Assembly: GCF_009937995.1 (NCBI RefSeq)
Contig: NZ_AP021881.1
Coordinates: 1,798,001 to 1,862,000, forward strand
Direction: 5' to 3'
Origin: Sulfuriferula nivalis
Lineage (GTDB): Bacteria; Pseudomonadota; Gammaproteobacteria; Burkholderiales; Sulfuriferulaceae
Length of the DNA stretch: 64,000 bases
In this document: in pieces, positions 7,992 to 60,249 of the stretch
Layout: each line of letters starts with the position of its first letter
Numbering within the stretch: position 1 is the first letter of the stretch
Made by a program: the position numbers and the translations under genes
Notes under the pieces: model-generated
The model's input: the letters and a program-made list of their open reading frames with translations, nothing else
Told to the model about the DNA's origin: nothing
Database searches by the model: none

Positions 7992-8022
7992 CTTATTAAT
8001 GGATTTAATTAGACATAATATC

Positions 8023-10665: not shown

Positions 10666-10703
10666 GTAGTGAAGGGATTGGAGTGGCTGGGCTGGACGCT
10701 TAC

Positions 10704-10763: not shown

Positions 10764-10842
10764 GTAAGCGTCCAGCCCATCCACCTGTCATTGCCCGCCA
10801 AACTCATGCAATCTAGCTGCTTTTTTATGAAAGGCACGCTAG

Positions 10843-11148: not shown

Positions 11149-11504
11149 TATCTGCCCATCCCATCAGCCCCATCGCCACCCAGGTCTGGCTAGTCATCGA
11201 ACCCGTGGACATGCGCATCGGCATAGATGGCCTTTCCCAGCGCATCCAGCACCGCCTGGGTCGCAGTCCCTGCGACGGCGCCGCCTACGCCTTCCGTAAT
11301 CGTCGCCAAACGCGGGTCAAGCTCCTGGTCTGGGATGGCACAGGGGTCTGGTTGTGCCAACGCCGACTGCATCGTGGTCACTTCACCTGGCCAGACATCG
11401 CTGCCATCACCCATCCTTTAACCCCCACACAGTGGGACTGGCTGATCACAGGTATCGACTGGCAAAGACTCAGTGCCCCAGCCCCTGCCCACTGGCAGGT
11501 GTAG
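11145..11504 (+). CDS. tnpB: IS66 accessory protein TnpB (copy 3)
   Basis: Identical to TnpB of copies 1 and 2 (119 aa), with the same 4-base overlap with tnpA. Confidence 0.95.
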   Translation: MISAHPISPIATQVWLVIEPVDMRIGIDGLSQRIQHRLGRSPCDGAAYAFRNRRQTRVKLLVWDGTGVWLCQRRLHRGHFTWPDIAAITHPLTPTQWDWLITGIDWQRLSAPAPAHWQV

Positions 11505-11584
11505 CCACTCATGATTCAGTAAAAACATGCCTGAAACCCGCATTATTGCTGGTTTCAGGCGGGGTGAAATGGTATAATTCAAGC

Positions 11585-13213: not shown

Positions 13214-13251
13214 GTAGTGAAGGGATTGGAGTGGCTGGGCTGGACGCTTAC

Positions 13252-13347
13252 AAACCAACCAGATCATCACAGGTAAAACGAGTAGCCAGCAAAATTATTC
13301 ACGGCAAAACCAAACAATCTAGAAGCAAAGTTACTGACGTAAATTAA
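13252..13347 (+). pseudogene. arfB: arfB fragment 4 of 4 (basic C-terminal tail and stop)
   Basis: It encodes KPTRSSQVKRVASKIIHGK and ends TDVN then TAA at 13345-13347. This is the lysine/arginine-rich tail that places ArfB in the empty mRNA channel of a stalled ribosome. The first 8 bases are the second copy of the AAACCAAC duplication. The stop lies 1 base from the convergent smc stop. Confidence 0.9.
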
Positions 13348-13348
13348 G

Positions 13349-16843: not shown

Positions 16844-16905
16844 TGAATTAAGCCAATAAGAGTAAAATATGACCTTATATTTTACCTTAAAATTAGTTAT
16901 CTGCT

Positions 16906-18081
16906 ATGTACTACTTAGGCTTAGATTTCGGCACATCTGGTGCGCGCGCGATAATAATCGATGATGCTGAGCAATTAATATGGTCAACACAAACCACATA
17001 CCATACTGCCGATAGCCCACACAGTTGGCGTGATGCACTATTCGAGCTGATTGCAGCCATTCCTGCCCCCCTACGTGCTGGTTTAACACGCATTGCCATT
17101 GATGGCACATCAGGCACGGTATTGCTCACTGATGATAGCTTTGAGCCCATTACTCCAGTACTGATGTACAACCATCCACTGGCTGGTCAACCCGCTGCAA
17201 AATTAACGCTACTGACCAAAAATACAGCCAATGCACGATATTTAATGCATCAGGTTGATTACCTCAATGCGCAATTGACTAGTGTGGCTGGTATAAGTGA
17301 TTATCATAATGCATTAAAAAGCGGCTATGACGTTCGAGCCCTTAAGTGGCAAGCGGAACTATGCACACCTGAATTTGCCAGACTGCTCCCCACCATCGTC
17401 GCACCAGGCACACCCATAGCCAAGCTGCAACGGCGTATTGCCCGCCATTACAACCTCAATGCCAATTGCACCGTACACACTGGCACCACTGACAGCATTG
17501 CTGCTTTCATAGCTGCCGGGGCTACGCACATAGGAATGGCAGTAACGTCATTGGGAAGCACACTGGTACTGAAACTGCTTAGCCAGCACTATGTCGCCTC
17601 ACCCAAGCACGGCGTATATAGCCATAAATTTGGTAATTTGTGGCTAGTTGGCGGCGCTTCAAATACAGGTGGTGCCGTGTTACGACAGTTCTTTACTGAT
17701 GACGAGTTAATAACCTACAGCGCATTGATTGACCCATCTCAACCCGCTCTCTACGATTACTACCCATTACCGAGCCCAGGTGAACGCTTTCCTGTTTGCG
17801 ACCCTAACTACCAACCACGACTAACACCCAGACCAGACGACAACATCGTATTTTTACATGAGCTATTGGCAGGCATGGCACGGATAGAACAACAAGGTTA
17901 TGCCAAACTCGTCGAATTAGGTGCCGACGATGTAACACAAGTATTAACTGCCGGTGGTGGGAGTAAAAATCCTCAATGGCAAGCAATACGTGCTCGCTTT
18001 TTGAACATTCCCGTCAACTCTGCACTATGTTCCGATGCCGCGTTTGGCAGCGCGCTAATGGCAAAAAGACAAGAGCTTTGA
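16906..18081 (+). CDS. FGGY-family carbohydrate kinase (D-ribulokinase-like)
   Basis: The 391-aa protein has the two ATPase lobes of the FGGY family: phosphate loop GLDFGTSGAR (residues 5-14), a central TGTTDSIAAF segment with the likely catalytic aspartate, and a C-terminal adenosine motif TAGGGSKNPQWQ. It is shorter than xylulokinase or glycerol kinase (about 490-500 aa) and closer in size to the short D-ribulose kinases of cyanobacteria and plants. The substrate is therefore only a suggestion. Confidence 0.8.
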   Translation: MYYLGLDFGTSGARAIIIDDAEQLIWSTQTTYHTADSPHSWRDALFELIAAIPAPLRAGLTRIAIDGTSGTVLLTDDSFEPITPVLMYNHPLAGQPAAKLTLLTKNTANARYLMHQVDYLNAQLTSVAGISDYHNALKSGYDVRALKWQAELCTPEFARLLPTIVAPGTPIAKLQRRIARHYNLNANCTVHTGTTDSIAAFIAAGATHIGMAVTSLGSTLVLKLLSQHYVASPKHGVYSHKFGNLWLVGGASNTGGAVLRQFFTDDELITYSALIDPSQPALYDYYPLPSPGERFPVCDPNYQPRLTPRPDDNIVFLHELLAGMARIEQQGYAKLVELGADDVTQVLTAGGGSKNPQWQAIRARFLNIPVNSALCSDAAFGSALMAKRQEL

Positions 18082-44356: not shown

Positions 44357-45295
44357 TTATTCATTAGCCACACCATGCGGAACGTGCCCAGTGGCGACGT
44401 GCTGGCGCGCGGATTCGCAGTGCTTTTGATGGTCATCAAAGAAAATATCGGCTCTGAATGCTTTCAGAAACTCCCCTTTGTCTTTTCCGCGTAAGAAAAA
44501 GGCTTCATCTATACGGATATTCCAGGCGCGCAATGTACGAATAACCCGTTCATGGGCAGGTGCACCACGCGCCGTGATTAAGGCTGTGCGGATAGGTGCT
44601 GTATCTGCTGGAAATTCCAATTGAAGCTGATGCAACAATGCAAGAAAATTTTTAAATGGCCCACCAGGCAAAGGCTGCTTCGCGGCTAATGTTTCATTAC
44701 TTTCAAATGCCTCCAATCCATCCTGCTTATAAATACGTTCTGACTCATCTGAGAACAAGACAGCATCCCCGTCAAAGGCGATACGCAACTGCGATGGATC
44801 CACTTCAGAAACAGCTGCAGAAGCAGAAGGTAAAATCGTCGCCGCAGCAAATCCCGCCTCTAGCGTCTTACGCACATCATTAGCTTCGGCAGAAAGAAAC
44901 AGCTGAGCACCGAATGCTGAAATGTACGGATGTGTACTTGCGCCCCGTGTAAAAGCAGCGCGACTGATATTCAACCCATGATGCTTTATCGAATTGAATA
45001 TACGCAAGCCAGTATCTGCGCTATTACGAGATAATAAAATCACTTCAACACGCGGATTTTCAGGATCACGTTCATTTAATGCCAGCAATTTCCTCACCAG
45101 ACTAAATGCCACACCAGTTTCAAGCGGTATATCCTCATGCTGAATTTGGTATCTGCAATATGCTTCCACACCGTCCTTTTCAAAAACAGCATGGCTCTCA
45201 TCAAGATTAAAAAGAGCACGAGAGGAAATGGCGACTATTAGCTTTTTATGGCTAAAAGACATACCATCCGAACTTGAATCCGTCATGGTTTTCAA
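44357..45295 (-). CDS. Cytosolic 5'-nucleotidase-like protein (HAD-type)
   Basis: The 312-aa protein matches the bacterial 5'-nucleotidase family (PF06189-like): LIVAISSRALFNLDESHAVFE, GVAFSLVRKLLALN, VILLSRNSADTGLRIFNS, then LRIAFDGDAVLFSDESE with the HAD DxD motif, TALITARGAPAHERV and ADIFFDDHQKHCE. It should dephosphorylate nucleoside monophosphates. It overlaps the repeat-protein gene by 4 bases. Nucleotide-degrading enzymes in such islands can act in antiphage defence; the role here is inferred. Confidence 0.8.
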   Translation of the reverse strand: MKTMTDSSSDGMSFSHKKLIVAISSRALFNLDESHAVFEKDGVEAYCRYQIQHEDIPLETGVAFSLVRKLLALNERDPENPRVEVILLSRNSADTGLRIFNSIKHHGLNISRAAFTRGASTHPYISAFGAQLFLSAEANDVRKTLEAGFAAATILPSASAAVSEVDPSQLRIAFDGDAVLFSDESERIYKQDGLEAFESNETLAAKQPLPGGPFKNFLALLHQLQLEFPADTAPIRTALITARGAPAHERVIRTLRAWNIRIDEAFFLRGKDKGEFLKAFRADIFFDDHQKHCESARQHVATGHVPHGVANE

Positions 45296-45654
45296 ATTAA
45301 TTCAATCGCAAATAAAATGGCGGCCAATTGTTCGGTGCTAAATCTCTCTGAAGTATTAAAAAGTATGTTGCTACTGCTACTACTATCACCTTTATAGACC
45401 TTATTGCCTTTAATATTGCACAGCATATTACTGCTACTTCCGCTCTCGCCTTTGTAAACTTTATCATCTCTGATATTAAACAGCATATTGCTACTACTGC
45501 CGCTATCCCCCTTATAGACCTTACCTTCTCTAACATTACATAGCAGATAACTACTGCTTGTGTGATTACCTTGGTAGACTTTGTTTCCTACAATATTGCA
45601 ATCCAAACTAATCAATTTACTACTACTGCTGCTATCACCCAGATAAACTTTCAT
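45292..45654 (-). CDS. Small protein of five about 20-residue repeats
   Basis: The 120-aa protein is nearly all repeats of the form KVYKGDSGSSSNMLFNIRDD, five units with period 20 (the first is 23 long). At DNA level the period is 60 bp, so the gene looks like a recent tandem duplication or one kept uniform. The pattern (aromatic/Gly turn, Ser run, hydrophobic pair, Asn turn) suggests a beta-solenoid. The end (EQLAAILFAIELI) is a hydrophobic helix. It has no signal peptide. Function unknown; coupling to the 5'-nucleotidase gene suggests they act together. Confidence 0.7.
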   Translation of the reverse strand: MKVYLGDSSSSSKLISLDCNIVGNKVYQGNHTSSSYLLCNVREGKVYKGDSGSSSNMLFNIRDDKVYKGESGSSSNMLCNIKGNKVYKGDSSSSSNILFNTSERFSTEQLAAILFAIELI

Positions 45655-45693
45655 AGCTACTCCACTTCAAAAAATCAATAAAAAATTAACCAA

Positions 45694-46596
45694 CTATTGG
45701 TGCACTTGCTTATATTTACATACATATACCCTAATACATTCAAGCATAGTGTTGCTATGAATGGTCAATACTTCTGGAATGCTGCCATCGTCAGCAACTT
45801 GATAACCACCTGCCAGATTCCACGCGATGGGTATGCCAAGCGCATTTGCCGTTTCAAATACAATCTTGTCTCGTATCCTTAGTTGCTCAGTTGTTAAAAA
45901 CCCACCTAATGGATCTTTAATATGCGGGTCTGCTCCAGCCTGGTACAGGATAATGTCGCAGTCTTGCATCTTTGTAATTTTCTCAGAGACACTCAACAAG
46001 AATTCCTGGGTTTGATGTGTAGCTTCATATTCACGTCCAGCCGTATAGTGTTCTATCCATTTCAATTGATGCTGTTCAATTAAGTTATCCGTGCCATCCC
46101 CATAATGCATATCAAAGTCCAGGATACCCACTTTGTTGGCTAATCCACTCACCTTCAAAATCATCGCCGTCACTACCAGTCCATTGAACGTGCAATACCC
46201 AAACGCGGATGCATACTTTGCATGGTGAAATCCTGAGCAAGGTGCAACAGCTACTTTCCCGTTACGAATAGCTTCTCGTGCCGCCGCCAGCATAGCACCT
46301 GTTGTATAAAGCAAAGTAGCTGCTACCTCGGGTAATTTATTGCCAAAACCATTTTTAATTTCGCATGCCAAAATTTGATCCACATAATCTGGATTATGTG
46401 CCTGCTTAAGTTGATCAACAGTCACTGGTTCAGGCTCAATAACAGCAATCGGTAGATCCAATCTTAACCAAGCATCCATCACCTTTTCAGGCTTGGCGGC
46501 ACTGGGTGAAGAACTACTGAAATGGGCAACCATCCTAGGCGTAAAAAACACAGGTACATCGTTCACACATTCAGTAAGTTGCGAGACTGGTTCCAC
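45694..46596 (-). CDS. Histone deacetylase-family (HDAC fold) protein
   Basis: The 300-aa protein starts at a GTG (46596) with GGGCG upstream. HDAC-fold marks are PCSGFHHAKY with the paired catalytic histidines, zinc ligands in GILDFDMHYGDGT, and the second aspartate motif QAGADPHIKDPLGG, then NLAGGYQ. Family enzymes remove acetyl or related acyl groups from lysines, polyamines or small molecules. It is first in the operon ahead of the repeat protein and 5'-nucleotidase, with a palindromic operator-like site upstream at 46646. Confidence 0.85.
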   Translation of the reverse strand: MEPVSQLTECVNDVPVFFTPRMVAHFSSSSPSAAKPEKVMDAWLRLDLPIAVIEPEPVTVDQLKQAHNPDYVDQILACEIKNGFGNKLPEVAATLLYTTGAMLAAAREAIRNGKVAVAPCSGFHHAKYASAFGYCTFNGLVVTAMILKVSGLANKVGILDFDMHYGDGTDNLIEQHQLKWIEHYTAGREYEATHQTQEFLLSVSEKITKMQDCDIILYQAGADPHIKDPLGGFLTTEQLRIRDKIVFETANALGIPIAWNLAGGYQVADDGSIPEVLTIHSNTMLECIRVYVCKYKQVHQ

Positions 46597-46645
46597 TTTG
46601 TTCGCCCTATATTCATTGCCAATAAGGTGTATTTAATCCCATTGA

Positions 46646-46664
46646 TACGACACTATGTGACGCA
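46646..46664. promoter_or_regulatory. Operator-like site 4 (HDAC operon / 46708 gene)
   Basis: TACGACACTATGTGACGCA matches the palindrome at 52591 (reverse complement) at 15 of 19 positions. It lies between the divergent starts at 46596 and 46708. It is the weakest of the four sites. Confidence 0.55.
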
Positions 46665-46707
46665 TGCGTAAATAAACTTAGTACTTTCGATTAAAAACCA
46701 GAACATC

Positions 46708-47265
46708 ATGAAATTCGACCACAAACTAGACTATTCTGAAAATCTAAAAGCACGTTATATGCATAGGCAAAATGCCGAAGCATATTTCACCGACTATCAA
46801 TCGCTTAATGAAACAGAACGTAGTCAACTACAAGCATTAAATAAACACCTCACTTTGCTTGAAAAGCAATACTTGCCCATTTTAAAAACCAAATACACAC
46901 AACTGCAGGAACGAGTTAAAAATCATCACGACTGGATACAAGATTTCAATCTTGAGTTTGTCATTACCTTTTATTTACATGAAAGCGACTATGAATATGA
47001 AGAAAACGATGACAACATCCTTATGGAGCTACATGAGGATATTTTTGACTGTATCCACACTGATCAAGAATGGGGATTTGGTATAACGAATATAAATCAT
47101 TGTGACTGTCCTGCATATTTTGTTGGTGAGTGGCATTGTTATCTGTATCACTGTCTTTACGATCATTGCGGATTGGACTGGCTTGATTTGCTTCGCATTG
47201 GCTCAGTTTGCGTGGAAATTAAAATTGATGAGCAGACGTGGGAACAACCGTTCCCACGCATATAG
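46708..47265 (+). CDS. Hypothetical protein
   Basis: A 185-aa soluble acidic protein that I cannot assign. The first half is helical (NETERSQLQALNKHLTLLEKQYLPILKTKY); the second half is rich in Asp, Glu, His, Cys and Trp (HCDCPAYFVGEWHCYLYHCLYDHCGLDW), which could bind a metal. It has no clear ribosome site. It is divergent from the HDAC operon and shares its operator-like site. Confidence 0.55.
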   Translation: MKFDHKLDYSENLKARYMHRQNAEAYFTDYQSLNETERSQLQALNKHLTLLEKQYLPILKTKYTQLQERVKNHHDWIQDFNLEFVITFYLHESDYEYEENDDNILMELHEDIFDCIHTDQEWGFGITNINHCDCPAYFVGEWHCYLYHCLYDHCGLDWLDLLRIGSVCVEIKIDEQTWEQPFPRI

Positions 47266-47334
47266 CGCCCCCTGTCTGCCCCATTGTTGACTTTGGAAAG
47301 TGGGATAACAATGTTAAAAGTAAGGGTATGCTTA

Positions 47335-47844
47335 TTATAGATATGGCTGAATAAAACCATCATACCGACCACGTGACGGATGCATCCTAGTCTGGTAAAT
47401 CACCTTCTGTGGCATCTCAGCAAGTAGTTCTAGCACATAGGATTTGCGTGCTGTAAAACGATTGGCCGCACCCCAACCTAAAATGACAATATCAGACTCA
47501 TTCAGAGCGTCCTTAATAGTTGCATCATTGAGCGCGCCAATTTCGTGTGGCAAACCCTGAAAATCATTGGTTTGAATGTATGCAAACTGATTAACCACTA
47601 TCAGTCGGCGCACGCCTGCGAATTCTGCCAGTTCTTTTTTGAATACCACCTTTTCCATGAATTGAACGGACTTGTCAGCTACGTCTTCCCCAGCATAACT
47701 CGGATTTTGCATTACTACACAAGCAGTTTTGCCTGTGGGTGGTGCATCGTTCAGAGTGATATCCAGTTGATAACGGTAGCGCATTTCATTTTCCCATGCG
47801 AATTGGGCAGTTACTGTTACATCGTCAATGTGCTCGTAAATCAT
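47335..47844 (-). CDS. DUF1643-like protein
   Basis: A 169-aa protein resembling DUF1643: MQNPSYAGEDVADKSVQFMEKV, RLIVVNQFAYIQTND and ESDIVILGWGAANR. The family is common near restriction and modification or phage genes, but its activity is unknown. Its start lies 20 bases inside the end of the DUF262 gene, with a GGGGAG ribosome site there, so it is the last gene of the four-gene operon. Confidence 0.7.
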   Translation of the reverse strand: MIYEHIDDVTVTAQFAWENEMRYRYQLDITLNDAPPTGKTACVVMQNPSYAGEDVADKSVQFMEKVVFKKELAEFAGVRRLIVVNQFAYIQTNDFQGLPHEIGALNDATIKDALNESDIVILGWGAANRFTARKSYVLELLAEMPQKVIYQTRMHPSRGRYDGFIQPYL

Positions 47845-50044
47845 GAATACTCCCCGTCAGTTCATTTGAACCAGCATCCTTTGAAAGAATAGAACTACAA
47901 ACCGCATAATATTCGCTATATAAATTGAACGCCCGCCTATAAACCGCATGTTGGAACGCTTGCAAACGTTTTTCGTGCCATACCCAGCATTCTTTACTTC
48001 CAACATCACCATACTTAGGAGATGCTTCTAACCATAACTGCTCGTGATCCTGATTCTCGTATAGCTTACTATCGTCAGCTTGCCAATCAACGAGGTTTGT
48101 CTCTAATTTAGAAGCAAGTGGATCATCACCAAAACTTCGATTTAGGCTAGATTCAAGCACGTGCAAATTGCCTATACAATTACCTATGTCGTTCCTAGCA
48201 GCATGAAAGTCTGAGTCACTGCATTTAATATAACTCCAGTGTTTACCCCAATGATCTTGTGGGCAAAGGTGATCGTAATCATAGGGCACCGTGTCCTCAT
48301 CAATTAAATTTGAATCCGAAGTTAACTTGCTAAAAGCTTTCTCTACATAGTCCCTTTGTAACCACAACAATATAGGCTTACGCCACCAGCAAAACCTTTT
48401 ATAAAGCTCACGTTGCGGAATTGTATTATGATCATCCTTAAACAGTTTATCCGCTGTGAGTAATCTCGTAGATTCATACGGTAATAAAATTTGGTTTAGT
48501 TCATCCGGTGGCATCAATGGTAGCGCCAATCCAATTTCATTTTCATTTCCCGAATTAGATTTTATTAATGCGTTGTATATAGCTTCTGCTGGAAAAGCAC
48601 CTTCAACCCCCGCTATTTCAAACGCCTTTTTACTCGCGCCATCATCATTCCAAATGTGCAAATACCAAAACAAGGCAAATGCGATGATTGTTTCCCGACT
48701 ATCTGCAATCGTCTTCTCATCGTTAAGCATAATCCATCGAAGCAATACTTGGATTAAGCCGCGAGAAAGATGCGGTAGCATATAATTTGGGATGCCACTA
48801 TCCTTCTCTCCTCGATAAATCAAGGTGCGTCCCAGCGACTTGAATGCATTAACAAACTGACTATCTTTCATCAAATAATTACGTAGTGGACCAGGCTTCT
48901 CTTTTGTCCCGAGAAGCGTTGCTAAATGACGATGAAAATCGCTAGGTTTGGGACGCGGATTGTCTCCAATTACTATTACTTCTGTTTGCGCTGCAGCCAG
49001 TCTATACGCAGTCATCACATAATCTGAGGAACTCATTGGGTAAGGGAAATCGTCACTCTTCACTTTCTCAACTAAATTATGTGCTTCAGGCCATTGTTGT
49101 TTGATCATGGAAAACAGCAAATCATCAGGTGTAAGTTTAGTGGCGTTGCTACCTATACGTTCAAATAACAATATCAGCGGTGCTGTAAACTCGTTATTCT
49201 TGTTATCTTTAGCCTCTGGCTGGCTCTGGCTAATATATTCAGGAATCAAAATCAAAGGGACTTCAAGTGATGCTATACGTTCAAAAGCATCATAAAGCTG
49301 TTCAAGTTTATGTTTAACCTTTTCCTCATCAGTATCACCAAATAATTTTTGCATGAATGCTTTTTTGTCGCTTAGCCCTCTGAATACATTCCAAGCATCT
49401 GTCAAACGAATAAATAACTTACTATTCCTGCCAGCCACATATGGGCGTGGTTGTTCAGTTTTGTCGAGATTAAATAATTCATAATCACGCCTTTCTTCAT
49501 GTTGTTGATGATTTTTATCATAATCTTTCCGTGCTTCTTTTCGCTCATGCCTAGAAAGGCGAGTTTGGGATATGCGCTGAAACCCAAATGGCTGTGCCTT
49601 AGTCGTGATTCTGAGTTCGAACGTAGCACCTGCCCCACCATCCCTTCCAAGGTCTATCCATAAACAATGTTGTTTTGAATGTTTTTCAAACCAACCCAAC
49701 AGCATGGACAATGTTCTTTGCTGTCCGTCAAGCAAACCTACCGACTCAGACTGTACCTCTGCAGATACGCGCTTATCTTCCACAATATTTGTTGCAGATT
49801 CCCCTGCTGCTAACTTGCTCACCATGAGACTACCTATCGGCATGCCTCTCAGCAATGAATCCCACAGATCCACAATCTGTTTAGGTTTCCATACAAATCC
49901 ACGCTGAATTGATGGCAGTAACAATTGCTTAGCATATGTGCCAGTATTGCTAGCCCATGCCAGATATTCTGGCAGTTTCATTCCTATTACTTGGGCACCA
50001 TTACAGAATGGCCAATCATCACAGTCCAATTTTATATCCGTCAT
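47825..50044 (-). CDS. DUF262 / HNH (GmrSD-like) endonuclease
   Basis: The 739-aa protein has an N-terminal DUF262 ParB-like domain (IQRGFVWKPKQIVDLWDSLLRGMPIGSLM-type region at 46-75, and LDGQQRT at 105-111) and a C-terminal DUF1524-like HNH nuclease (DYDHLCPQDHW at about 589-599, IGNLHVLESSLNRSFGD at about 625-641). This arrangement is seen in GmrSD type IV restriction enzymes, where DUF262 uses nucleotide hydrolysis and the HNH part cuts DNA, often modified phage DNA. It is third in the operon. Confidence 0.85.
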   Translation of the reverse strand: MTDIKLDCDDWPFCNGAQVIGMKLPEYLAWASNTGTYAKQLLLPSIQRGFVWKPKQIVDLWDSLLRGMPIGSLMVSKLAAGESATNIVEDKRVSAEVQSESVGLLDGQQRTLSMLLGWFEKHSKQHCLWIDLGRDGGAGATFELRITTKAQPFGFQRISQTRLSRHERKEARKDYDKNHQQHEERRDYELFNLDKTEQPRPYVAGRNSKLFIRLTDAWNVFRGLSDKKAFMQKLFGDTDEEKVKHKLEQLYDAFERIASLEVPLILIPEYISQSQPEAKDNKNNEFTAPLILLFERIGSNATKLTPDDLLFSMIKQQWPEAHNLVEKVKSDDFPYPMSSSDYVMTAYRLAAAQTEVIVIGDNPRPKPSDFHRHLATLLGTKEKPGPLRNYLMKDSQFVNAFKSLGRTLIYRGEKDSGIPNYMLPHLSRGLIQVLLRWIMLNDEKTIADSRETIIAFALFWYLHIWNDDGASKKAFEIAGVEGAFPAEAIYNALIKSNSGNENEIGLALPLMPPDELNQILLPYESTRLLTADKLFKDDHNTIPQRELYKRFCWWRKPILLWLQRDYVEKAFSKLTSDSNLIDEDTVPYDYDHLCPQDHWGKHWSYIKCSDSDFHAARNDIGNCIGNLHVLESSLNRSFGDDPLASKLETNLVDWQADDSKLYENQDHEQLWLEASPKYGDVGSKECWVWHEKRLQAFQHAVYRRAFNLYSEYYAVCSSILSKDAGSNELTGSIHDLRAH

Positions 50045-50059
50045 TTCCTGCTCCGCCTT

Positions 50060-51031
50060 TTATGTTGTTACAACGCTAATTACTTCTTTATTCACTGCCC
50101 AAACATCATCCCCAAATCCCCGCAACCACCACTCCAGCATCTCACTATCCACCACCGTCGCAGTAATCTCGTAGGCATCATCCAACTCCACTACCCGCTG
50201 ATCCAGCGACAGAGGCGATTCAAGCAAATGCAGTCCCGCATCCTTATCAATACGGAAACTCAGCTTAATGTGTTGGCCATTACCATAACCAAATCGGCCA
50301 TCGTCGTCATATTGCTTAAGATCGAAGTCTTTGGGGCGTTCAAACGTTAGCGTTGAAACCTTTGCGGAGATGATGCGATTCAACGCAAGGCTACGCTCGT
50401 TATCATAACCATCAAATCGACAAACAAGGTACATGCGTTGACCCTGTTGCGCCAAGCCCAGCGGCATGACGCGAGTCTCGGTACGTTTACCAGCCGCGTT
50501 TTTGTAATCCACTTCCAGCCACTGATTTGCGTAAAGCGCATTGCTGACCTGTTCAAATACGAGCGGATCAATTTTGGGTGGCAACAACGGCTGGGTGGTG
50601 CTGACTACACGCACCTTTTCCAGCCATTCCCGTTCGCGTTTGGTTTTACTTTTGTCCCCGAGCTGACTGCGTGCCTGGGTAAAGAAGCCTTGCATGGATT
50701 TCATTAGTTTGGTGGGCAACAGGCTGTTCAAATGCTGTTCAGCAAGGGTAAGCAACAACGATTCCTGTGGGCTAAGACCAACCAGGCTTAACCCTTTGGC
50801 AAACTCTTTCCATTTGTAACGATACGGCTTACTGCTGTCATCACGATCAATGTCATAGTTTTCGCTAAGCATATCCAGTTGGCGCTGCAGGGTGCGCAAG
50901 TCACGATTAATACCTGCATCAGCCAGTTGCTGACGCAACTCCGATGCAGTAACCGTACGTCCCTTGGGAATGCGCTGTAATATTGCATGCGTTAGATTGA
51001 GTTCTTCAACGGAATTTGGACGTTTTGGCAT
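50060..51031 (-). CDS. WYL-domain transcriptional regulator
   Basis: The 323-aa protein has an N-terminal winged helix (TVTASELRQQLADAGINRDLRTLQRQLDML), a WYL ligand-sensing domain (about 165-235, WLEVDYKNAAGKRTETRVMPLGL, YLVCR) and a C-terminal WCX-type domain. Similar proteins (BrxR, CapW) repress defence operons by binding palindromes. It is encoded 3 bases after the DUF2779 gene, so it probably controls its own operon and the other units bearing the 19-bp palindrome. Confidence 0.9.
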   Translation of the reverse strand: MPKRPNSVEELNLTHAILQRIPKGRTVTASELRQQLADAGINRDLRTLQRQLDMLSENYDIDRDDSSKPYRYKWKEFAKGLSLVGLSPQESLLLTLAEQHLNSLLPTKLMKSMQGFFTQARSQLGDKSKTKREREWLEKVRVVSTTQPLLPPKIDPLVFEQVSNALYANQWLEVDYKNAAGKRTETRVMPLGLAQQGQRMYLVCRFDGYDNERSLALNRIISAKVSTLTFERPKDFDLKQYDDDGRFGYGNGQHIKLSFRIDKDAGLHLLESPLSLDQRVVELDDAYEITATVVDSEMLEWWLRGFGDDVWAVNKEVISVVTT

Positions 51032-51034
51032 AGT

Positions 51035-52534
51035 CTATAACCTCATATCTGTGCGACCAGCAAATACCTGCCACAGGCGCACCATGGCGTAAGTATCGAG
51101 CTTGCAATACGCTAAAAGCTGCTGCTTGATCTGAGCTTTGCGTTCAGTGTTCGTATTCGGATGAATAGCTTCAAGAAAAGCATCCATCGCCATGCCGCCA
51201 TCTTGCACACCGTCGAGCGCGTCATAACGTAATTCAGGCACTACGGCAGGCAGCACTTTTTTAATGCTCCAGCTACCTTGCTGACTTGGGTGATAATAAC
51301 GCTCACGTGCAATAGGCAGCAGATCAACAACACGCTCATTAATGGCTAGCAGCGATTCACTTATCAATGGATAACGTTCAGCCAATTCACGGATACGTGC
51401 CGTTTCAAAGCCTGCGTTATAGACATAAACAGGGCCTTGCTGACCACAAGCTGCGATTAACGCATACGCAAATGCCTCGGATGGGTTATTACCAGACAGA
51501 TCAAGGAAGTCACTATGTTCCAACTCTCCTGATTCAGTTAATGTGTGCAAACTAAACTGGAAGGTAATCTGCTGATATGGTCGTGTGCCTTTCCAGATAG
51601 GTACTGCAAACTGAATAGTCTCAAAATCAAGAAAATTGGCTGGAAGCGGATACTCAGCCAGATCCGCCAATGCGCCTTCAGCATCAAAATATACTGTATT
51701 GGATACCGTGTAGTCTTTTACTCGTTGTTGCTTATCATTAAGCAAGTCATCGGGTATTTCTGTCATATCGTACAACCCTTGAGCCGCCAGTTCACGCTTC
51801 TTGGCCGAAGGAAAACGTGGCAACCAATTAATTGGGTATTCAGGTTTCGGCTCATTTTGACTGCAATATGCGAAGAAGCCACACTCATAAGGCGTATCGC
51901 AATGATTACCAATTTTAATATCTGGTTCATCAGTTTCAGCAACGATATTTTGCGCCTGGGTTATCCAACCTTGAACTTCCTCTGTCCGCGCAAAGGCTTC
52001 CGCTGTAAGGTCATTTTCTTTTAAAAGGCCGTGATAATTATCGTCGCCAGGATAAACCCAGGAACTGTCAATGTGCGCCAATGCAATAGACTTCAACGGC
52101 ACACCTGCAGACTGCGTTACAAACGCTTGCACCGCCACATCGTCGCGATGGTAATCTTTAACGCTAGTAGAGGATTTAACTTCCACCATGCGCCAGGCTT
52201 GCTTGCCCTCATTTTGTATAGGTAACATGACATCGGCGAATGCCATCGCTCCACCTGCTGAAAAACCAGCCTCAAAAATGGGTTGCGCAATATTCAGTAA
52301 TTCAGCGCTGCGTTCAAATGCACGCTTAAATCCTTCGCTCTGAATATCAATTAGCGCACCACAACCATCCGGATCATATATTTGCTGAGCAATATCCCCG
52401 ACCTGGAATCCAATCTGAAAACTGGCTTCAGTTGCATCCGAATCCTCACGTAGATCAGGACGATTGATTTCCAGCCACAACCGTTTTGGACATTGTCGTA
52501 AAGCGAGCAGCTTGGATTTTGAGAATGTGCGCAT
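51035..52534 (-). CDS. DUF2779 protein: Cas4-like nuclease fused to DEDD-type exonuclease fold
   Basis: ATG at 52534 (MRTFSKSKLLALRQCPKRLW, 499 aa) is preferred to a longer frame that adds 19 residues. Residues about 1-230 look like a RecB/Cas4-type PD-(D/E)xK nuclease: QCPKRLW at 14-20, D101, EVKSS at 118-122, and Cys212, Cys218, Cys224 for an iron-sulfur cluster with Cys15. Residues about 298-490 are DUF2779, with DEDD-like motifs FLDFET (301-306), YNAGFE (372-377) and CKLDT (477-481). It is likely a nuclease and is first in the operon, behind an operator-like palindrome. Confidence 0.8.
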   Translation of the reverse strand: MRTFSKSKLLALRQCPKRLWLEINRPDLREDSDATEASFQIGFQVGDIAQQIYDPDGCGALIDIQSEGFKRAFERSAELLNIAQPIFEAGFSAGGAMAFADVMLPIQNEGKQAWRMVEVKSSTSVKDYHRDDVAVQAFVTQSAGVPLKSIALAHIDSSWVYPGDDNYHGLLKENDLTAEAFARTEEVQGWITQAQNIVAETDEPDIKIGNHCDTPYECGFFAYCSQNEPKPEYPINWLPRFPSAKKRELAAQGLYDMTEIPDDLLNDKQQRVKDYTVSNTVYFDAEGALADLAEYPLPANFLDFETIQFAVPIWKGTRPYQQITFQFSLHTLTESGELEHSDFLDLSGNNPSEAFAYALIAACGQQGPVYVYNAGFETARIRELAERYPLISESLLAINERVVDLLPIARERYYHPSQQGSWSIKKVLPAVVPELRYDALDGVQDGGMAMDAFLEAIHPNTNTERKAQIKQQLLAYCKLDTYAMVRLWQVFAGRTDMRL

Positions 52535-52590
52535 AACTTCCTCGTTAAGAATTACTAGATTAAACAAACTAACTCTATTGTAAGCACGCA

Positions 52591-52609
52591 TGCGACATAT
52601 TGTGTCGCA
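52591..52609. promoter_or_regulatory. Operator-like site 1 (perfect palindrome)
   Basis: TGCGACATATTGTGTCGCA, with arms TGCGACA / TGTCGCA perfect over 7 bp and a 5-base spacer. It lies 57 bases before the DUF2779 start and 124 before the FtsZ-like gene. Best match of four related sites. Confidence 0.8.
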
Positions 52610-52659
52610 CTTTTTACATAAACAATAATTTCCTTAAACATCAGACTTTTTGAATCCAT

Positions 52660-52678
52660 TACGACACATTTCGTCGCT
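52660..52678. promoter_or_regulatory. Operator-like site 2
   Basis: TACGACACATTTCGTCGCT matches the reverse complement of site 1 at 14 of 19 positions. It lies 55 bases before the FtsZ-like start, 69 bases (centre to centre) from site 1. Confidence 0.65.
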
Positions 52679-52732
52679 GAGGTGATTATGCTGCTTTATC
52701 GCTATTTTCCGAAGAATACTTGATTAAGAAAA

Positions 52733-53671
52733 ATGGATAAATCGACATGGGACACCAAATTTGGCGTCATTGCTGTGGGTGGCGCTGGAAGTAACGTTCT
52801 TACAGACAACGCCAAATCGTTACCCTATATTCATCGCACCATTGCTATTGATACCGACCCTACGGCTTTACATGATGCAGTAGCGGACATAAAACTTTTA
52901 GTTGGCGCTAATCAAGCTAACCAAACTATTCCAAACACGACACTATCCATTACCAACATACATCAAATTATTGATGCTGTAAGTGATCTTGATATAGTGT
53001 TTATTGTTGCTGGAATGGGGGGCGTAACTGGAACGAGCATTTCATCCAACATTGCTGAAATTCTACAAAATCACAATATTGCTGGGCTAGCAGTTGCCAT
53101 TATGCCTTTCAATTTTGAAGGCGAAAAACATAAAGAGATAGCATTAAATGGCGTCAAAACGCTCACTCCTCATGTTAATGGTGTTTTCCAAATATCCAAT
53201 GAGACATTTGCGAACACAGCAGATAAAAATCACCGTACTGTACCTCTGCTTAAGCATGCATCTTTAGCCTTTGCTCAATTTTATCAATGCATCATAAATA
53301 CCAGTGAAAAGCCTGGTATCGTCGGTATTGATTTCGCGGATGTGGCTAGTTTCATGAGCAACGATGGGAATACTGCTTTTGGATATGGATCAGCAACGGG
53401 AGAGAATAGTATCGAAACAGCAATACAACGAGCAATTGATCATCCACTGCTCACTCAACGTCAATTACCACTCGCCTCAAGCGCACTGATTGCTTTTGAA
53501 ATAAACAACCAGAATCATCCCATCATGCCAATAATCTGTCATGGTTTTAACGTCTTTCGAACGCAACTTCCACCAGATACGGTCATGTTTTGGTGTGCGA
53601 TATTTAATCCAGAAATCAATCATGATTTCAGAGTAACAATCATGTTAAGTGGTATTTCAGATGAGAATTGA
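52733..53671 (+). CDS. FtsZ-like tubulin-family GTPase
   Basis: The 312-aa protein has the FtsZ GTP-binding core: AVGGAGSN at 14-21, the tubulin signature GMGGVTGTS at 94-102 (GGGTGTG in FtsZ), and a synergy-loop region IDFADVASFMSN at 199-210 very close to that of FtsZ. The usual Asn of NxDxxD is Gly, while both aspartates remain. It lacks the C-terminal tail that binds FtsA/ZipA. It is therefore a divergent FtsZ paralogue, not the cell-division gene. It is followed by the AAA+ gene, and both have operator-like sites. Confidence 0.85.
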   Translation: MDKSTWDTKFGVIAVGGAGSNVLTDNAKSLPYIHRTIAIDTDPTALHDAVADIKLLVGANQANQTIPNTTLSITNIHQIIDAVSDLDIVFIVAGMGGVTGTSISSNIAEILQNHNIAGLAVAIMPFNFEGEKHKEIALNGVKTLTPHVNGVFQISNETFANTADKNHRTVPLLKHASLAFAQFYQCIINTSEKPGIVGIDFADVASFMSNDGNTAFGYGSATGENSIETAIQRAIDHPLLTQRQLPLASSALIAFEINNQNHPIMPIICHGFNVFRTQLPPDTVMFWCAIFNPEINHDFRVTIMLSGISDEN

Positions 53672-53752
53672 GGCTATTATCTGCAAATTAAATGAAACAC
53701 TATAGCTAATAAATGACTCGGATATAAATCTTAGGATTCGTAACGCATTTAA

Positions 53753-53771
53753 TACGACACAAAATGTCGCA
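53753..53771. promoter_or_regulatory. Operator-like site 3 (AAA+ gene)
   Basis: TACGACACAAAATGTCGCA matches the reverse complement of site 1 at 17 of 19 positions. It lies 43 bases before the AAA+ gene start at 53814. Confidence 0.75.
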
Positions 53772-53813
53772 TGTGTGCCTGATCATTACCCAAAACTTAT
53801 CAAGGACACGATT

Positions 53814-55913
53814 ATGAAACTCGATATTCAAAAAAATAAATCAACCTTTACTGACAACTTAAATAAAGAGCTAAAGCATTTATGGCTCTTACGTATCATT
53901 CTAAAACTTGAAGCGCATAAAAGGTTTTTGAATGAACATGCATTTAGATTTGATGATATAGCACGTGAACTAGGTTTGGACAATTACGTTGATAATCCAC
54001 GTGCATACAACCGCGATTTAATTCTGACTGAGCTACGTCAAAATTTAGCCACCATTGAGAAGCATCCACCCCAAGCAAAATCGGAATCACGGCTATGGGA
54101 AAACCTTGGCATGCTAGGTCAAGCACTTAAACTGAATGATATTGAAATTCTGATTCTCTTTTTTGCCATCGCTGTTAAAACCGAAGATCATTTTGAAGAA
54201 GCTATTGATTCTATGGGTAACCTAAATATAGCGTCCATAGAAAAAATATTCAGCATCTGCCTTGGAATTGGAATAACTGATGTCCGGACAGCTCTCTCTG
54301 AATCAGGCACCCTATTTCGTACAGGTATCCTGTGGCTTGATATGGACAGTGTTTATACCTTTTCAAACACAGTAGTCATCATGCACGGTTTAACAACTGA
54401 ACTCATGCGTGAACAGAATGAGCCTTTGAGTTTATTCCATAACCACATCGTCCCATCTTTTAAAGCCAAACTGGGTGCAGAGCATTATTCCCATCTTACC
54501 GAAGACACCGCAACCATCAAGCACTATCTTGGCGCTGCCGGACAAGCAAAAAACACAGGGATAAATATACTTATTTATGGTGCTCCTGGCAGTGGAAAAA
54601 CCGAGTACGCACGAATGATAGCTGAAGTTACAGGACATCATCTATACGAGATAGCCACCGAAACTCGCCAAGCTAAAGCGCTGGAAGGATCAGAACGGTT
54701 TCGCGCGTTCAGATTAGCGCAAACCATCCTGGAACGGCGTCATGACACGCTGATCCTGTTCGATGAAATCGAGGATGTGTTCAAAGAGTCACTTAGTAAA
54801 TCAGGTAAAAGAGACAATCAAAGTGGCACTAAAGCATGGGTAAATCGATTATTGGAAACCAACCCAGTGCCCTCCTTCTGGCTTACCAACAACTTGCCAC
54901 AACTGGATCCCGCTGTCGTACGTAGGTTTGACTACATACTGGAAATGAATGCACCTCCCCGCAGTGTTCGTGCTCGTATGCTGGATGATTATTTAATTGA
55001 CCTACCAATTTCCACGCACTGGAAACGTCAAATGTCAGAACATGAAAATCTGGTACCTGCCGTAATTGAACGAGCAGCAAAAGTTGTACGACACATTAAA
55101 CATACCATTCCAACACAGGAGATGGATAAGGTCATTTCTAGGGTGATGGGCAATACCCTGGAAGCGCTTTATCTACCCCGTATGCCTAAGGCATCATTAG
55201 GCATGGATACCAACTATCGCCTAGAAATCCTTAATGCTGACTGCAATGTAGGCGAGATTTGCGATAACTTGGTAACGGAAAAACGAGGCCGCTTGTGTTT
55301 GTACGGTCCGCCGGGTACAGGAAAATCTGCATTCGGCCGCTATATTGCTGACCGTATGGATCGTCCTCTGCTCATCAAGCGTGCATCTGACATACTCTCA
55401 CCATTTCTTGGTGAAGCTGAGATAAACATGGCGAAAATGTTCCGAGAAGCCGAAATCGAAAATGCCGTGCTGCTACTAGATGAGGCTGACACCTATCTGC
55501 AAGATCGGAAAAATGCCCAGCGTTCATGGGAAATCAGTGAAGTAAACGAGATGCTCACGCAAATGGAAAGTTTTGATGGTGTATTTATTGCCTCAACCAA
55601 CCTCATGAGTAGCCTGGATCCAGCCGCTTTAAGACGTTTTGATTTAAAGTTGCGATTTGATTATCTGAAGCCAGAACAAGCCTGGCTTATGTTTACTGAC
55701 ACTATAGCCAAACTAGGCTTGCCGCTCGATGAATCATTACAAAAATCAGTAGCTGCACTCGCTATGCTGACACCTGGTGACTTCGCTACGGTTAGTAGAC
55801 AGGCTCGGCTGCGTAAAATTACTGATGACGCTGATTTGTTAAGTCGGTTAACGGATGAATGCGCCCTTAAGCCAGATGCAAATAAACGCGCTATTGGCTT
55901 TTCATCTTACTGA
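53814..55913 (+). CDS. Double AAA+ ATPase
   Basis: ATG at 53814 has an AAGGA ribosome site (699 aa). Residues about 1-235 are a helical N domain without a known family. The first AAA+ module has Walker A GAPGSGKT (256-263), Walker B ILFDEIED and RRFD arginine-finger region (370-373). The second has GPPGTGKS (498-505), LLLDEAD and LRRFD (606-610). Both look active. The layout is like Cdc48/ClpA-type unfoldases, but no protease-docking motif is seen. The FtsZ-like gene upstream is its likely partner. Confidence 0.88.
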   Translation: MKLDIQKNKSTFTDNLNKELKHLWLLRIILKLEAHKRFLNEHAFRFDDIARELGLDNYVDNPRAYNRDLILTELRQNLATIEKHPPQAKSESRLWENLGMLGQALKLNDIEILILFFAIAVKTEDHFEEAIDSMGNLNIASIEKIFSICLGIGITDVRTALSESGTLFRTGILWLDMDSVYTFSNTVVIMHGLTTELMREQNEPLSLFHNHIVPSFKAKLGAEHYSHLTEDTATIKHYLGAAGQAKNTGINILIYGAPGSGKTEYARMIAEVTGHHLYEIATETRQAKALEGSERFRAFRLAQTILERRHDTLILFDEIEDVFKESLSKSGKRDNQSGTKAWVNRLLETNPVPSFWLTNNLPQLDPAVVRRFDYILEMNAPPRSVRARMLDDYLIDLPISTHWKRQMSEHENLVPAVIERAAKVVRHIKHTIPTQEMDKVISRVMGNTLEALYLPRMPKASLGMDTNYRLEILNADCNVGEICDNLVTEKRGRLCLYGPPGTGKSAFGRYIADRMDRPLLIKRASDILSPFLGEAEINMAKMFREAEIENAVLLLDEADTYLQDRKNAQRSWEISEVNEMLTQMESFDGVFIASTNLMSSLDPAALRRFDLKLRFDYLKPEQAWLMFTDTIAKLGLPLDESLQKSVAALAMLTPGDFATVSRQARLRKITDDADLLSRLTDECALKPDANKRAIGFSSY

Positions 55914-56197
55914 ATAAAAAATTGCAAATGTTGCTATCCACAATCGCACAGTAACAATCAAAGCTAGTTGTACATGAGGGTTAAAAACTAATCTTCAAAT
56001 AAATGCACTAGGTTGTTAAATTGCGCCGCAGATTGACCCATCTTTAGCATATTAGTCTGACCCACCAAATTTGATAACTGACCATTTGGCACAACGGGTT
56101 GAACGAAGCCGCTATCGCGGAGAAATATTCCCGAACCATCAAATTACGCAGCATAATTTCGTCTCCCCCAGCAATGGAATTTTGATTACTGTACCAC
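55914..56197. other. Non-coding stretch before the IS91-like element
   Basis: AT-rich DNA with no gene seen. The left end of the IS91-like element must lie somewhere here, but I could not place it. Confidence 0.5.
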
Positions 56198-58235: not shown

Positions 58236-58935
58236 ACCAGCCCACACCGCCCACCTGCCAGACTAGGCAGGTATGGCCGTGCTCGCCCTGAAGAAGGCTG
58301 AAATTGGGTTAACATGCCCGAAAAGCCGACTAAAAACGGTGAGTTGAATAGAATAAGTTGCTGCAATGGCAACGTGAAGGTCGTGAAATGGCGGGTGGGA
58401 TGCGTAACGCGTCCAGTTATGCCAGCATAGTCAAAAAGATATTTCCATAAGCGCTCAAGCAACACCCGCCCCAGCCATGCCGGGCTTGTCCAACAAACGG
58501 TTCAGATTGTGGCTCGCTTCGCGATCACAATCTAACCTTATTCGTTATATTTCTTGAGGCGGATCAATATTTAATGCAAACATTTAGACAAAGCGGCTCA
58601 ATTCGGCATGCAATTTAACAGTTGATGGCATCTAACGTCAATATTCAGGGACGCGAGCCACAGACTTTCAAACAGCGTCCTAATTATTAGGTTTCGATGA
58701 TTATCAGCGTCAATGAAACCGCTAAAAAGCCATACCACCTCTGGATTAGCTAAAAACAAGTGGGAAATTTACGCGTTGATTGGTGGAAAATATGTGGCGC
58801 TGTTTAACACTGTCACCCCAGTTTGGACTAAATTAACTATAGGCGTCCGCTTTGTGGCAAACTGTTAGCAAGTCACTATAACCGCTTCGTACCATCAGCG
58901 GAACTTCAGTTGGCACACCAAATTTCCACACATTC
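58236..58935. other. 700 bp without a convincing gene
   Basis: It holds the tail of the IS91-like element, a hairpin ACCTGCC / GGCAGGT (58252-58271), the attC-like site, then about 385 bases of anonymous DNA before the HEPN gene. A 77-codon minus-strand frame (58232-58465) has no recognised features and is not called. Confidence 0.5.
58488..58550 (+). other. attC-like recombination site
   Basis: Left box GTCCAAC fits RYYYAAC and right box GTTATAT is close to GTTRRRY. Between them are near-complementary arms GGTTCAGATTGTG and CACAATCTAACC, where the left arm has one extra C, the unpaired-base hallmark of attC sites. Length 63 bp fits the family. It may be a relic of an integron cassette or part of the IS91-like element's end. 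Confidence 0.45.
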
Positions 58936-60249
58936 ATGACAAAGCTCTCAAACAAAGACCGATGCACGCTGTTGAATTCAGCAAAACGCCTTTTTAGCAT
59001 CAAGTCTCTGCTCGTTCCAAAATTACTTAGCGACTTGCGAGAGATTCCTGTCAAACAACACTTCCCACGCATGCTAAAGCTGACGGGAAACCGAACTGTT
59101 TTTCTAACAGATTCTGGTTACGAACACTTTCGTGCTGTTATCGATGTTATTGATAAAGTTGATTTATTCGAGGGAATGGCTGATATCTCAGATATCTGGA
59201 CGGCGTGGCATAAAGTCGTGGAAAAGTGGCTTTCAAATGGCTCAGAGCCAGAAAATGCCGATGAAGTCGTACATGCTATTACTGAGCTTGTTGCTCAAGA
59301 AATCGACGAACACACCTTTATCGTTCCTTTATTCGGCATTGAGCTGGACAGCGTCGATTCCTTTGTTCTTGGGATAATGACGATTTTACGCATGTCGGTG
59401 GATGTGCTACATGCTTCAGGGATAGAACATGATCACATAAACGTCCCGCATCTCCTTGAATTGAACAAGAACTATTTGTGGCTGAAAGGCACTACACGAG
59501 GCACGCCACACGTAGCGCAACAAAAGTTTTCAGACCAGGCTGCTTTGACGGTAGGGATGCTAGCCATCACTGCCGCTTCGATGTATGAGCTGGGGGCAAG
59601 CGGTTTTCGAATTGGCATTATCATGTCACCAGAGGAAGCTATCGGGAGATCTGTTTGGTTTTCATGGCCTGAAAAAACCCGTAGTCTCACCACTCATTAT
59701 GCATCTCCCAAAGGACAGATGTTTGTCGTGAATAAGGCACTTGGAGATGAGTCTGACATGGTGCGGATAATTTATCGTACGTTCACAATTTTACAAAAGG
59801 CAAACGGCAGGACACAGCTTGAGGAAGCAATCGCAAGGGCGGTTTACTGGTATTCTGATGCGCAACGTGACTCCATATTGGTGATGAAATTAGTCAAATA
59901 TTGGAGTTGCGTTGAAGCATTCTTCTCATTCGAGAATGGGAAAATCACACAAGCCGTTACATCCGGCCTCGCAAGTACTCTGGTCTTCGGTGGTTTTCAT
60001 TTCGTGTCTACATCTGAGTACAGTTCGCTCAAGAAAAAAATAGCAAATCTGTACAGCCTCCGCTCGCGCGCCATTCATCGGGGATCACATCAACACATCA
60101 CAGAGCTGGATGTCGCCCAGTTTAGTCAATGGGTAGCTTGGATGATCATCAGCATGGTAGCTTTAGTGGAACAAGGGTATACGACACTTAATGACGTCAA
60201 GATGCAAACTGATCGTCTTGACGGTCTTGCAATAAATTACAATAAATAG
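58936..60249 (+). CDS. Apea-like HEPN-domain protein
   Basis: The 437-aa protein has an unassigned N-terminal part and a C-terminal HEPN domain (about 320-425): KLVKYWSCVEAFFSFENGK, then the ribonuclease signature LRSRAIHRG with Arg376/Arg378 and His381. In Apea-like antiphage proteins this domain cuts RNA and halts growth on infection. It stands alone between the IS91-like element and tRNA-Leu, without an operator-like palindrome. The function is inferred from the domain. Confidence 0.75.
   Translation: MTKLSNKDRCTLLNSAKRLFSIKSLLVPKLLSDLREIPVKQHFPRMLKLTGNRTVFLTDSGYEHFRAVIDVIDKVDLFEGMADISDIWTAWHKVVEKWLSNGSEPENADEVVHAITELVAQEIDEHTFIVPLFGIELDSVDSFVLGIMTILRMSVDVLHASGIEHDHINVPHLLELNKNYLWLKGTTRGTPHVAQQKFSDQAALTVGMLAITAASMYELGASGFRIGIIMSPEEAIGRSVWFSWPEKTRSLTTHYASPKGQMFVVNKALGDESDMVRIIYRTFTILQKANGRTQLEEAIARAVYWYSDAQRDSILVMKLVKYWSCVEAFFSFENGKITQAVTSGLASTLVFGGFHFVSTSEYSSLKKKIANLYSLRSRAIHRGSHQHITELDVAQFSQWVAWMIISMVALVEQGYTTLNDVKMQTDRLDGLAINYNK

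Follow-up and report, generated by a model that had tools for sequence, protein, structure and literature searches.

Regulators carrying a WYL domain are the closest described counterparts of the system treated here, and, as far as excerpts of the published accounts describe them, they act in some cases as repressors and in others as activators. CapW represses the cyclic oligonucleotide-based anti-phage signalling system (CBASS) through a palindrome of 19-24 bp in the defence-operon promoter, overlapping the -10 element, and BrxR represses a mosaic bacteriophage exclusion (BREX) defence island through two operators in that island, with a 5-bp half-site spacer; BrxR operators are not alike from member to member. 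SiwR and PafBC of mycobacteria are activators that answer DNA damage, and the target of SiwR is a 19-bp palindrome located between -10 and -35. DriD of Caulobacter crescentus is a WYL activator stimulated by single-stranded DNA (ssDNA) in a DNA damage response independent of SOS; its target, ATACGAC(X)7GTCGTAT, lies over the -35 element at a constant distance from the -10 element, and arginines contact its guanines (PMC12340889). Here, we describe a 19-bp palindrome, hereafter the box, that occurs four times on a gene island of Sulfuriferula nivalis, together with a gene for a WYL protein. The island was studied in a stretch of 64,000 nucleotides (contig NZ_AP021881.1, positions 1,798,001 to 1,862,000), which is referred to as the window. 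Our comparative analyses make it reasonably probable that the palindrome is a DriD-type activator box and that the island WYL protein is its activator. In the excerpts of the open-access literature consulted, we recognised nothing describing this box at such islands with WYL, DUF2779 and FtsZ genes.

Four boxes on a duplicated island

A sequence-only reading of the window had proposed four related palindromes in promoter regions. The four sites were recovered at the same positions and with the same identities to the site at 52591, namely 14 of 19 bases for 52660 and, in reversed orientation, 17 of 19 for 53753 and 15 of 19 for 46646:

52591 to 52609, strand not assigned: box 1, TGCGACATATTGTGTCGCA; 28.9 bits; exact match to TRCGAC-N7-GTCGYA, the DriD-type consensus; serves the DUF2779-WYL unit (minus strand)
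52660 to 52678, strand not assigned: box 2, TACGACACATTTCGTCGCT; 22.3 bits, the weakest of the four; one departure from TRCGAC-N7-GTCGYA; faces the FtsZ-like gene
53753 to 53771, strand not assigned: box 3, TACGACACAAAATGTCGCA; upstream of the AAA+ gene
46646 to 46664, strand not assigned: box 4, TACGACACTATGTGACGCA; one departure from TRCGAC-N7-GTCGYA; between the histone deacetylase (HDAC) operon and gene 46708

The pattern TRCGAC-N7-GTCGYA is exact in two of the four boxes and has one departure in the other two. When up to three mismatches were allowed, the 52591 word had three matches in the window (one of them the same site read backwards), compared with a mean of 0.04 in 100 shuffles, none of which reached three. 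A matrix made from the four sites gave the boxes 22-29 bits, values that are partly circular because the matrix was built from them; the next site, at 60180, scored 16.9 bits, and all others were at 9.5 bits or less. The 60180 site was rejected as an operator, since it is located inside the 3' part of the open reading frame (ORF) 58936-60249 and no -10-like hexamer was seen by eye at offset 9 or 10 on either side.

The genes of the island are the following:

50060 to 51031, minus strand: WYL regulator of 323 residues with Pfam WYL and WCX, the putative box-binding protein
51035 to 52534, minus strand: DUF2779 protein with weak Cas4/RecB-like nuclease matches
52733 to 53671, plus strand: FtsZ paralogue of 312 residues; retains the G-box GMGGVTG and the GIDFAD loop but lacks an FtsZ-like C-terminal tail
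53814 to 55913, plus strand: double AAA+ ATPase; near full-length match to phrog_10401, partial matches to IetA and CDC48
45694 to 46596, minus strand: histone-deacetylase-like protein, first gene of the HDAC unit
45292 to 45654, minus strand: 6-fold beta-flower protein
44357 to 45295, minus strand: 5'-nucleotidase; also the PADLOC candidate PDC-S08
46708 to 47265, plus strand: protein of 185 residues, facing box 4; no family in searches
47825 to 50044, minus strand: GmrSD-like (DUF262) protein, downstream of WYL; another gene takes its place in the second island copy
47335 to 47844, minus strand: DUF1643 protein

Each box lies upstream of its unit, as had been proposed, with the qualification that the DUF2779 ORF as listed begins at 52591, inside box 1. 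Because its homologues mostly align from residues 16-20, the gene probably starts at the ATG at 52534 instead. The DUF2779 gene ends 3 bases before the WYL gene, and the two therefore probably form one operon. For the AAA+ gene, whose product is matched by phrog_10401 over residues 32-709, the ATG at 53814 is a more likely start than the listed GTG at 53775.

The product of gene 52733 has Pfam Tubulin and FtsZ_C domains and keeps both the GTP-binding G-box and the T7 loop GIDFAD, but it is below the FtsZ equivalog level (152 bits vs a TIGR00065 cut-off of 295). It ends in SGISDEN, with no tail peptide like DIPAFLRKQAD; the C-terminal tail is the part by which FtsZ meets its partners. In a tree, five FtsZ-like proteins stood apart from 29 relatives' FtsZ (91/84), a weak separation given that all five are long-branched, and the structure model of the FtsZ-like protein had a mean predicted local distance difference test score of 70.

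A search of the whole genome for TRCGACANNNNNTGWCGYA gave six distinct places with no mismatch. Three belong to this island, and their three counterparts belong to a second copy of it, which lies near C1:1,025-1,030 kb, about 0.8 Mb from the first. The 52660-type box, with two mismatches to this pattern, is present in both copies. The genome scan thus showed no spread of equally good matches over the core genome. The earlier statement that no copies were noticed in the core genes read stands for sites without mismatch outside the two island copies and fails for one good match, C1:1558818 (L025 8818-8836; one mismatch, 22.5 bits), the best outside the island. This match was rejected as an operator, as it lies inside a frame that is open over 5333 codons, the whole 16-kb stretch fetched; the genome seems to carry a gene of more than 5000 codons there.

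The second copy (L024, C1:1,022.7-1,032.8 kb) lies in the opposite orientation, and its positions 7659-17792 align with window positions 44358-56100 in two parts of 98.5 and 98.8% identity. Identity between the copies is 100% for the HDAC gene, gene 46708, the FtsZ-like gene and the three intergenic stretches that hold boxes; for the DUF2779, AAA+, WYL and DUF1643 genes it is 98.9, 99.1, 95.2 and 90.6%, respectively. As the copies are too alike, box conservation between them is uninformative. The GmrSD gene is swapped in the second copy for a gene of 184 amino acids, for which profile and family searches found no family, and this exchange shows a cargo slot adjoining the regulator. At the island borders, short repeats of about 77-88 bases (56014-56101 and 58544-58620) recur, next to an IS91-type transposase and an ORF that by eye resembles a tyrosine recombinase. 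Outside the island, three stretches of about 2.5 kb in the window (4678-7166, 8216-10704 and 10760-13251) are 100% identical, one of them inverted.

Homologous loci and promoter geometry

Relatives of the WYL protein were collected from 25 plasmid records and 11 genome contigs, the latter at 57-81% identity. The first 20 loci, which take in seven plasmid stretches and two found by their AAA+ gene, carry island genes in changing combinations, in which DUF2779 adjoins WYL and the double AAA+ gene is beside them. FtsZ-like genes (28-36% identity) occur in L059, L061 (truncated), L063, L068 and L069, HDAC homologues in L060 (28% identical), L062 and L067 (fragment), and 5'-nucleotidase homologues in L058, L060 (fragment) and L067. 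When 399 genomes of the order and 369 of the class were searched with a WYL profile of 16 rows, made without L062 (internal stop), L067 (frame break) and L075-L077, relatives at E<=1e-25 appeared in 37 and 29 genomes, respectively, this genome being counted in both. The lists comprised 72 places outside this genome; the top 32 by score for the order and the top 20 for the class were fetched, giving 52 loci, of which 12 are close, 20 are distant in the order and 20 are distant in the class.

The matrix was fixed from the four window boxes, and a site had to reach at least 16 bits to count as strong. Nineteen of the first 20 loci contained such a site, as did 10 of 12 close, 9 of 20 distant order and 14 of 20 distant class loci; one, two, 11 and six loci of these sets, respectively, were without. 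Compared with 100 Markov simulations per locus, p was at most 0.02 in 10 of 12, 7 of 20 and 14 of 20 loci of the last three sets (p for each single locus, uncorrected for their number, the lowest possible value being 1/101). Of eight distant loci of family f20 (L173-L178, L183 and L185), seven had no box, although two further f20 loci, L167 and L188, do have boxes. None of 29 control loci, which are shorter at about 3.9 kb each, reached 16 bits.

By crude gene calls, 57 of the 89 strong sites in the window and 72 loci (four being the window's own) are intergenic, compared with an intergenic share of 11% of the sequence. Outside the window there are 85 sites, and 47 of them immediately precede the projected start of a gene homologous to one of the island: AAA+ (16), DUF2779 (15, the broken L067 gene counted once), WYL (11), FtsZ-like (5, in three loci) and HDAC (3), with three sites counting for two genes. 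Two of the FtsZ-like sites, both in L059, may instead serve a divergent neighbour, and the remaining 38 sites face other genes or no called gene. The palindrome is therefore kept in homologous loci upstream of the same genes, and every window promoter except that of gene 46708 has its box repeated elsewhere, thinly so for the FtsZ-like gene. Gene 46708 itself turned up in none of the 74 relatives' loci searched, and only in the second island copy. Boxes also stand upstream of WYL genes with no other island gene nearby (L072-L074 and L193-L195). Of 17 box-adjoining proteins without an island homologue, 11 had no Pfam match at E 0.01 and six matched AAA_5, FtsK_gamma (below its cut-off), adenylosuccinate lyase, M41 peptidase, metallophosphatase/5'-nucleotidase and ankyrin. 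In viral contigs, no relative of the WYL protein or of the FtsZ-like profile was confirmed.

Several further features of these loci were observed. In L062 (10001-10954), a Polaromonas WYL gene beside an HDAC gene has an internal stop, and the box between both is retained. The FtsZ-like homologues of L059 (2180-3433, minus strand), L061 (7576-8151, plus), L068 (4131-5225, plus) and L069 (7063-8253, minus) carry, by eye, leaders like those of twin-arginine translocation (Tat) substrates: from an internal methionine, RR-x-F/L is followed by a hydrophobic stretch and an AxA-like end. The window and L063 copies have no such leader (by eye), and exported FtsZ paralogues, if true, would be very odd. 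Sir2-like deacetylase genes in L059 (1354-2115) and L068 (2304-3086), both by eye, and in L075 (15260-16117, annotated) lie near FtsZ-like or AAA+ genes, where the window has HDAC, and L069 has an annotated macro-domain gene nearby. On Pseudomonas plasmids, a WYL relative (L214, 7935-15033) and an AAA+ relative (L077, 11917-18703) are near dynamin-family genes. L075 contains a WYL-AAA-Sir2 set with its box between WYL and AAA+, and about 2 kb upstream of this set are the BREX genes pglZ and brxD (5643-9736).

The window promoters show the following -10-like hexamers beside the boxes:

52577 to 52582, minus strand: TACAAT, offset 9-14 beyond box 1 on the DUF2779 side; passes the counting rule
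52687 to 52692, plus strand: weak TATGCT, offset 9-14 beyond box 2 on the FtsZ-like side; four of six bases as in TATAAT; fails the rule
53781 to 53786, plus strand: GATCAT, offset 10-15 beyond box 3 on the AAA+ side; passes the counting rule
46631 to 46636, minus strand: weak TTAAAT, offset 10-15 beyond box 4 towards HDAC; fails the rule
46673 to 46678, plus strand: weak TAAACT, offset 9-14 beyond box 4 towards gene 46708; fails the rule

The 45 loci, among them the window, provide 92 distinct gene-facing sides. On 32 of these sides, in 26 loci, a -10-like hexamer begins at offset 9 or 10 from the box, whereas other neighbouring offset pairs have a mean of 2.1 and a maximum of 6 sides. Without the window the count is 30 of 85, and in the window 2 of 7 sides pass. 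TTGACA at spacers of 16-18 was matched no better than random at these promoters, so that no -35 element stands above chance. Given the near-fixed offset of the hexamer and the want of a good -35 element, the box is placed over -35, spanning roughly -39 to -21, as in DriD promoters, and not over -10.

A candidate DriD-type activator and its alternatives

Of the published DriD sites, the matrix made from the window boxes alone recovered that of the driD promoter (16.4 bits, shuffle p 0.002) and that at didA (9.2 bits, p 0.007), and the driD-divergent promoter has, by eye, GACAAT at offset 8-13. When the WYL profile was compared with the PDB, seven sequences matched, of which five share the aligned letters of DriD (8tp8, 8tpk), one is PafBC and one is a transcription activator-like effector; the best matches were DriD chains, ahead of PafBC, in the WYL-WCX part. 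A winged helix-turn-helix motif, R-T/S-x-Q-R-x-L, is shared, as judged by eye, by most of the close relatives and differs among the distant ones. Across the 52 fetched loci, a box is present in 30 of 41 where recognition-helix residue 51 is polar (D, Q, H or N) and in 3 of 11 with other residues (Fisher p 0.011, relatedness not removed); in the 19 loci without a box, this residue is polar in 11, Y in four, I in three and L in one. Separately, where residue 51 is M (L061, L068 and L188 among the loci), CGTC replaces CGAC in 7 of 13 half-sites; for Q, H, N or D the figure is 16 of 141, which hints that protein and DNA covary.

On the DriD model, a dimer of the WYL protein (50060-51031) would bind the box, each winged helix taking one half-site (TRCGAC / GTCGYA), over the -35 region of promoters that have no good -35 element and at a near-fixed distance from -10. 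The signal would be ssDNA, arising from DNA damage, a replication block, or phage or plasmid invasion and bound by the WYL domain; the ssDNA-bound protein would then engage the box together with RNA polymerase. The DUF2779-WYL, FtsZ-like, AAA+ and HDAC units, and probably that of gene 46708, would be induced together, and, since the WYL gene is in an apparently box-controlled operon, the model predicts positive feedback. We infer binding by the WYL protein, the ssDNA signal, activation rather than repression and the purpose, an SOS-independent response to damage or invasion, from these likenesses. On that view, the island would serve as an emergency kit set off by DNA damage or infection.

Several observations weigh against this assignment. 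The window matrix missed bapE, a real DriD promoter (1.1 bits, p 0.14), the DNA-binding domain of DriD lies outside the alignments of the WYL profile, and the structure model of the WYL protein is of low confidence. In 11 carrier genomes, a loose pattern (at most one mismatch, both strands) gave 98 matches vs 100 for the reversed control, hence no enrichment, and a strict box and -10 pattern, too strict to be useful, gave three places vs three for its reversed control in 399 genomes, all three places being in two carrier genomes. By rule, 60 of the 92 gene-facing sides, including the HDAC, FtsZ-like and 46708 sides of the window, have no hexamer. By another measure, hexamers at offsets 9 and 10 also occur on 12% and 14% of sides without a called gene, compared with 25% and 19% of gene-facing sides, perhaps as a result of crude gene calls. 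Finally, a repressor, too, could bind over -35.

This last point bears on the strongest alternative, in which regulon and box are the same but the WYL protein would silence the promoters at rest, in the manner of CapW or BrxR, until an infection-made ligand releases them. Such an arrangement has precedent, as the excerpted accounts of CapW and BrxR describe WYL repressors of defence genes with palindromes of about 19-27 bp, and at least one relative (in L075) lies near the BREX genes pglZ and brxD. The sequence-only reading had followed these precedents. However, the box agrees with the DriD consensus and is unlike the Acinetobacter BrxR operator (-4.8 bits), and it lies upstream of -10 with near-fixed spacing and no good -35, whereas CapW sites are described in the excerpts as overlapping -10. 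We regard repression as unlikely, though deserving of serious attention.

It is improbable that the box is bound by another regulator coded elsewhere in the genome, with the WYL gene a passenger. Two loci fit that idea, in that a box precedes an AAA+ gene with no close WYL relative beside it (L076, 16.9 bits; L077, 15.8 bits and under the cut-off); against it, boxes precede WYL genes even where these stand alone, boxes without mismatch occur only in the two WYL-bearing islands of this genome, and DriD, itself a WYL protein, is described as binding this consensus. The 52591 palindrome does form a stem followed by CTTTTT on the plus strand, but a terminator was rejected there as scarcely credible, for no listed plus-strand ORF ends at that point, the scan of 46500-54000 lists no terminator at the other three boxes and the box sequence is kept near gene starts in other loci. 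That the four sites arose by chance, or descend from a single promoter segment that was duplicated, could be entertained for so few sites, one of them weak, and is just as implausible in view of boxes kept with WYL proteins of about 30-80% identity in differing surrounds, often above simulated sequence, and of the empty control loci.

Returning to the WYL protein as a DriD-type activator, the earlier proposal that it controls all four units so that their products form one system can be upheld in part. A shared box, its specificity within the genome and its conservation with the same genes speak for one WYL-linked regulon. Because the units recur separately, in many partial combinations, the regulon is modular, one shared box serving separately recurring units, rather than one fixed system; "one system" was an overstatement also in view of the cargo gene swapped between the island copies and of gene 46708, which relatives' loci do not share. 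That the FtsZ paralogue stops or guards division is a fair guess and no more, made because it lacks the tail, because the DriD target didA codes for a division inhibitor (PMC4211646, in excerpt) and because FtsZ with a phage protein has been reported, in an excerpted account, to activate immunity (PMC13423816).

Possible portable regulons and described WYL regulators

For most genes of defence islands it is poorly understood how they are turned on, and CapW and BrxR, the WYL regulators of such islands in the excerpted literature, are repressors with operators unlike each other. If many WYL-linked islands share one box and a near-fixed distance to -10, their regulons could be listed from sequence, cargo genes of no family would be recognisable by their promoter, and ssDNA-triggered activation would be predicted for many islands; an FtsZ paralogue under such control would connect DNA invasion with cell division without SOS. 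As a tentative extension, on which we place less reliance than on the assignment of the box itself, an ssDNA-triggered DriD-type activator may have been joined to its targets on islands and plasmids in Beta- and Gammaproteobacteria. The box and its -10 spacing would then be an address for interchangeable cargo (the DUF2779 nuclease-like protein, double AAA+ ATPase, FtsZ paralogue, HDAC or Sir2, and GmrSD) in a portable, SOS-independent response to phage and damage, in which the tailless FtsZ paralogue would stop or guard division, as DidA does, or decoy phage FtsZ inhibitors.

Among the described regulators, CapW resembles the island protein as a WYL regulator with a promoter palindrome. Its sites overlap -10, whereas the island box ends 8-9 bases upstream of the -10-like hexamer where one was found, and its gene is in a CBASS operon, whereas the PADLOC scan of ten island proteins (E 0.01) listed no match with a CBASS name. 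BrxR and the island protein have in common a WYL regulator, a mosaic island and several operators, but its Acinetobacter half-sites, ATACCGTAAA, are those at which the window matrix fails. SiwR and PafBC are WYL activators, and the SiwR palindrome is also 19 bp; other genes are regulated by them. As for DriD, the island proteins bear none of the DriD-target names in the excerpted accounts (didA, bapE, recJ, dnaG), yet the half-site and spacing of its target are the same as in the island box TRCGAC-N7-GTCGYA, both kinds of box lie over -35 at a constant or near-fixed distance from -10, and in both cases a WYL and WCX protein, with an N-terminal winged helix in DriD and probably in the island protein, is associated with boxes at several dispersed promoters. 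In DriD the domains are ordered winged helix-turn-helix, three-helix bundle, WYL and WCX, and Arg121, Arg122 and Pro125 of the bundle are its contacts with RNA polymerase. The division inhibitor encoded by didA has its parallel in the FtsZ paralogue unit of the island. What sets the island apart from DriD is that regulator and targets lie together in a duplicated, gene-swapping island.

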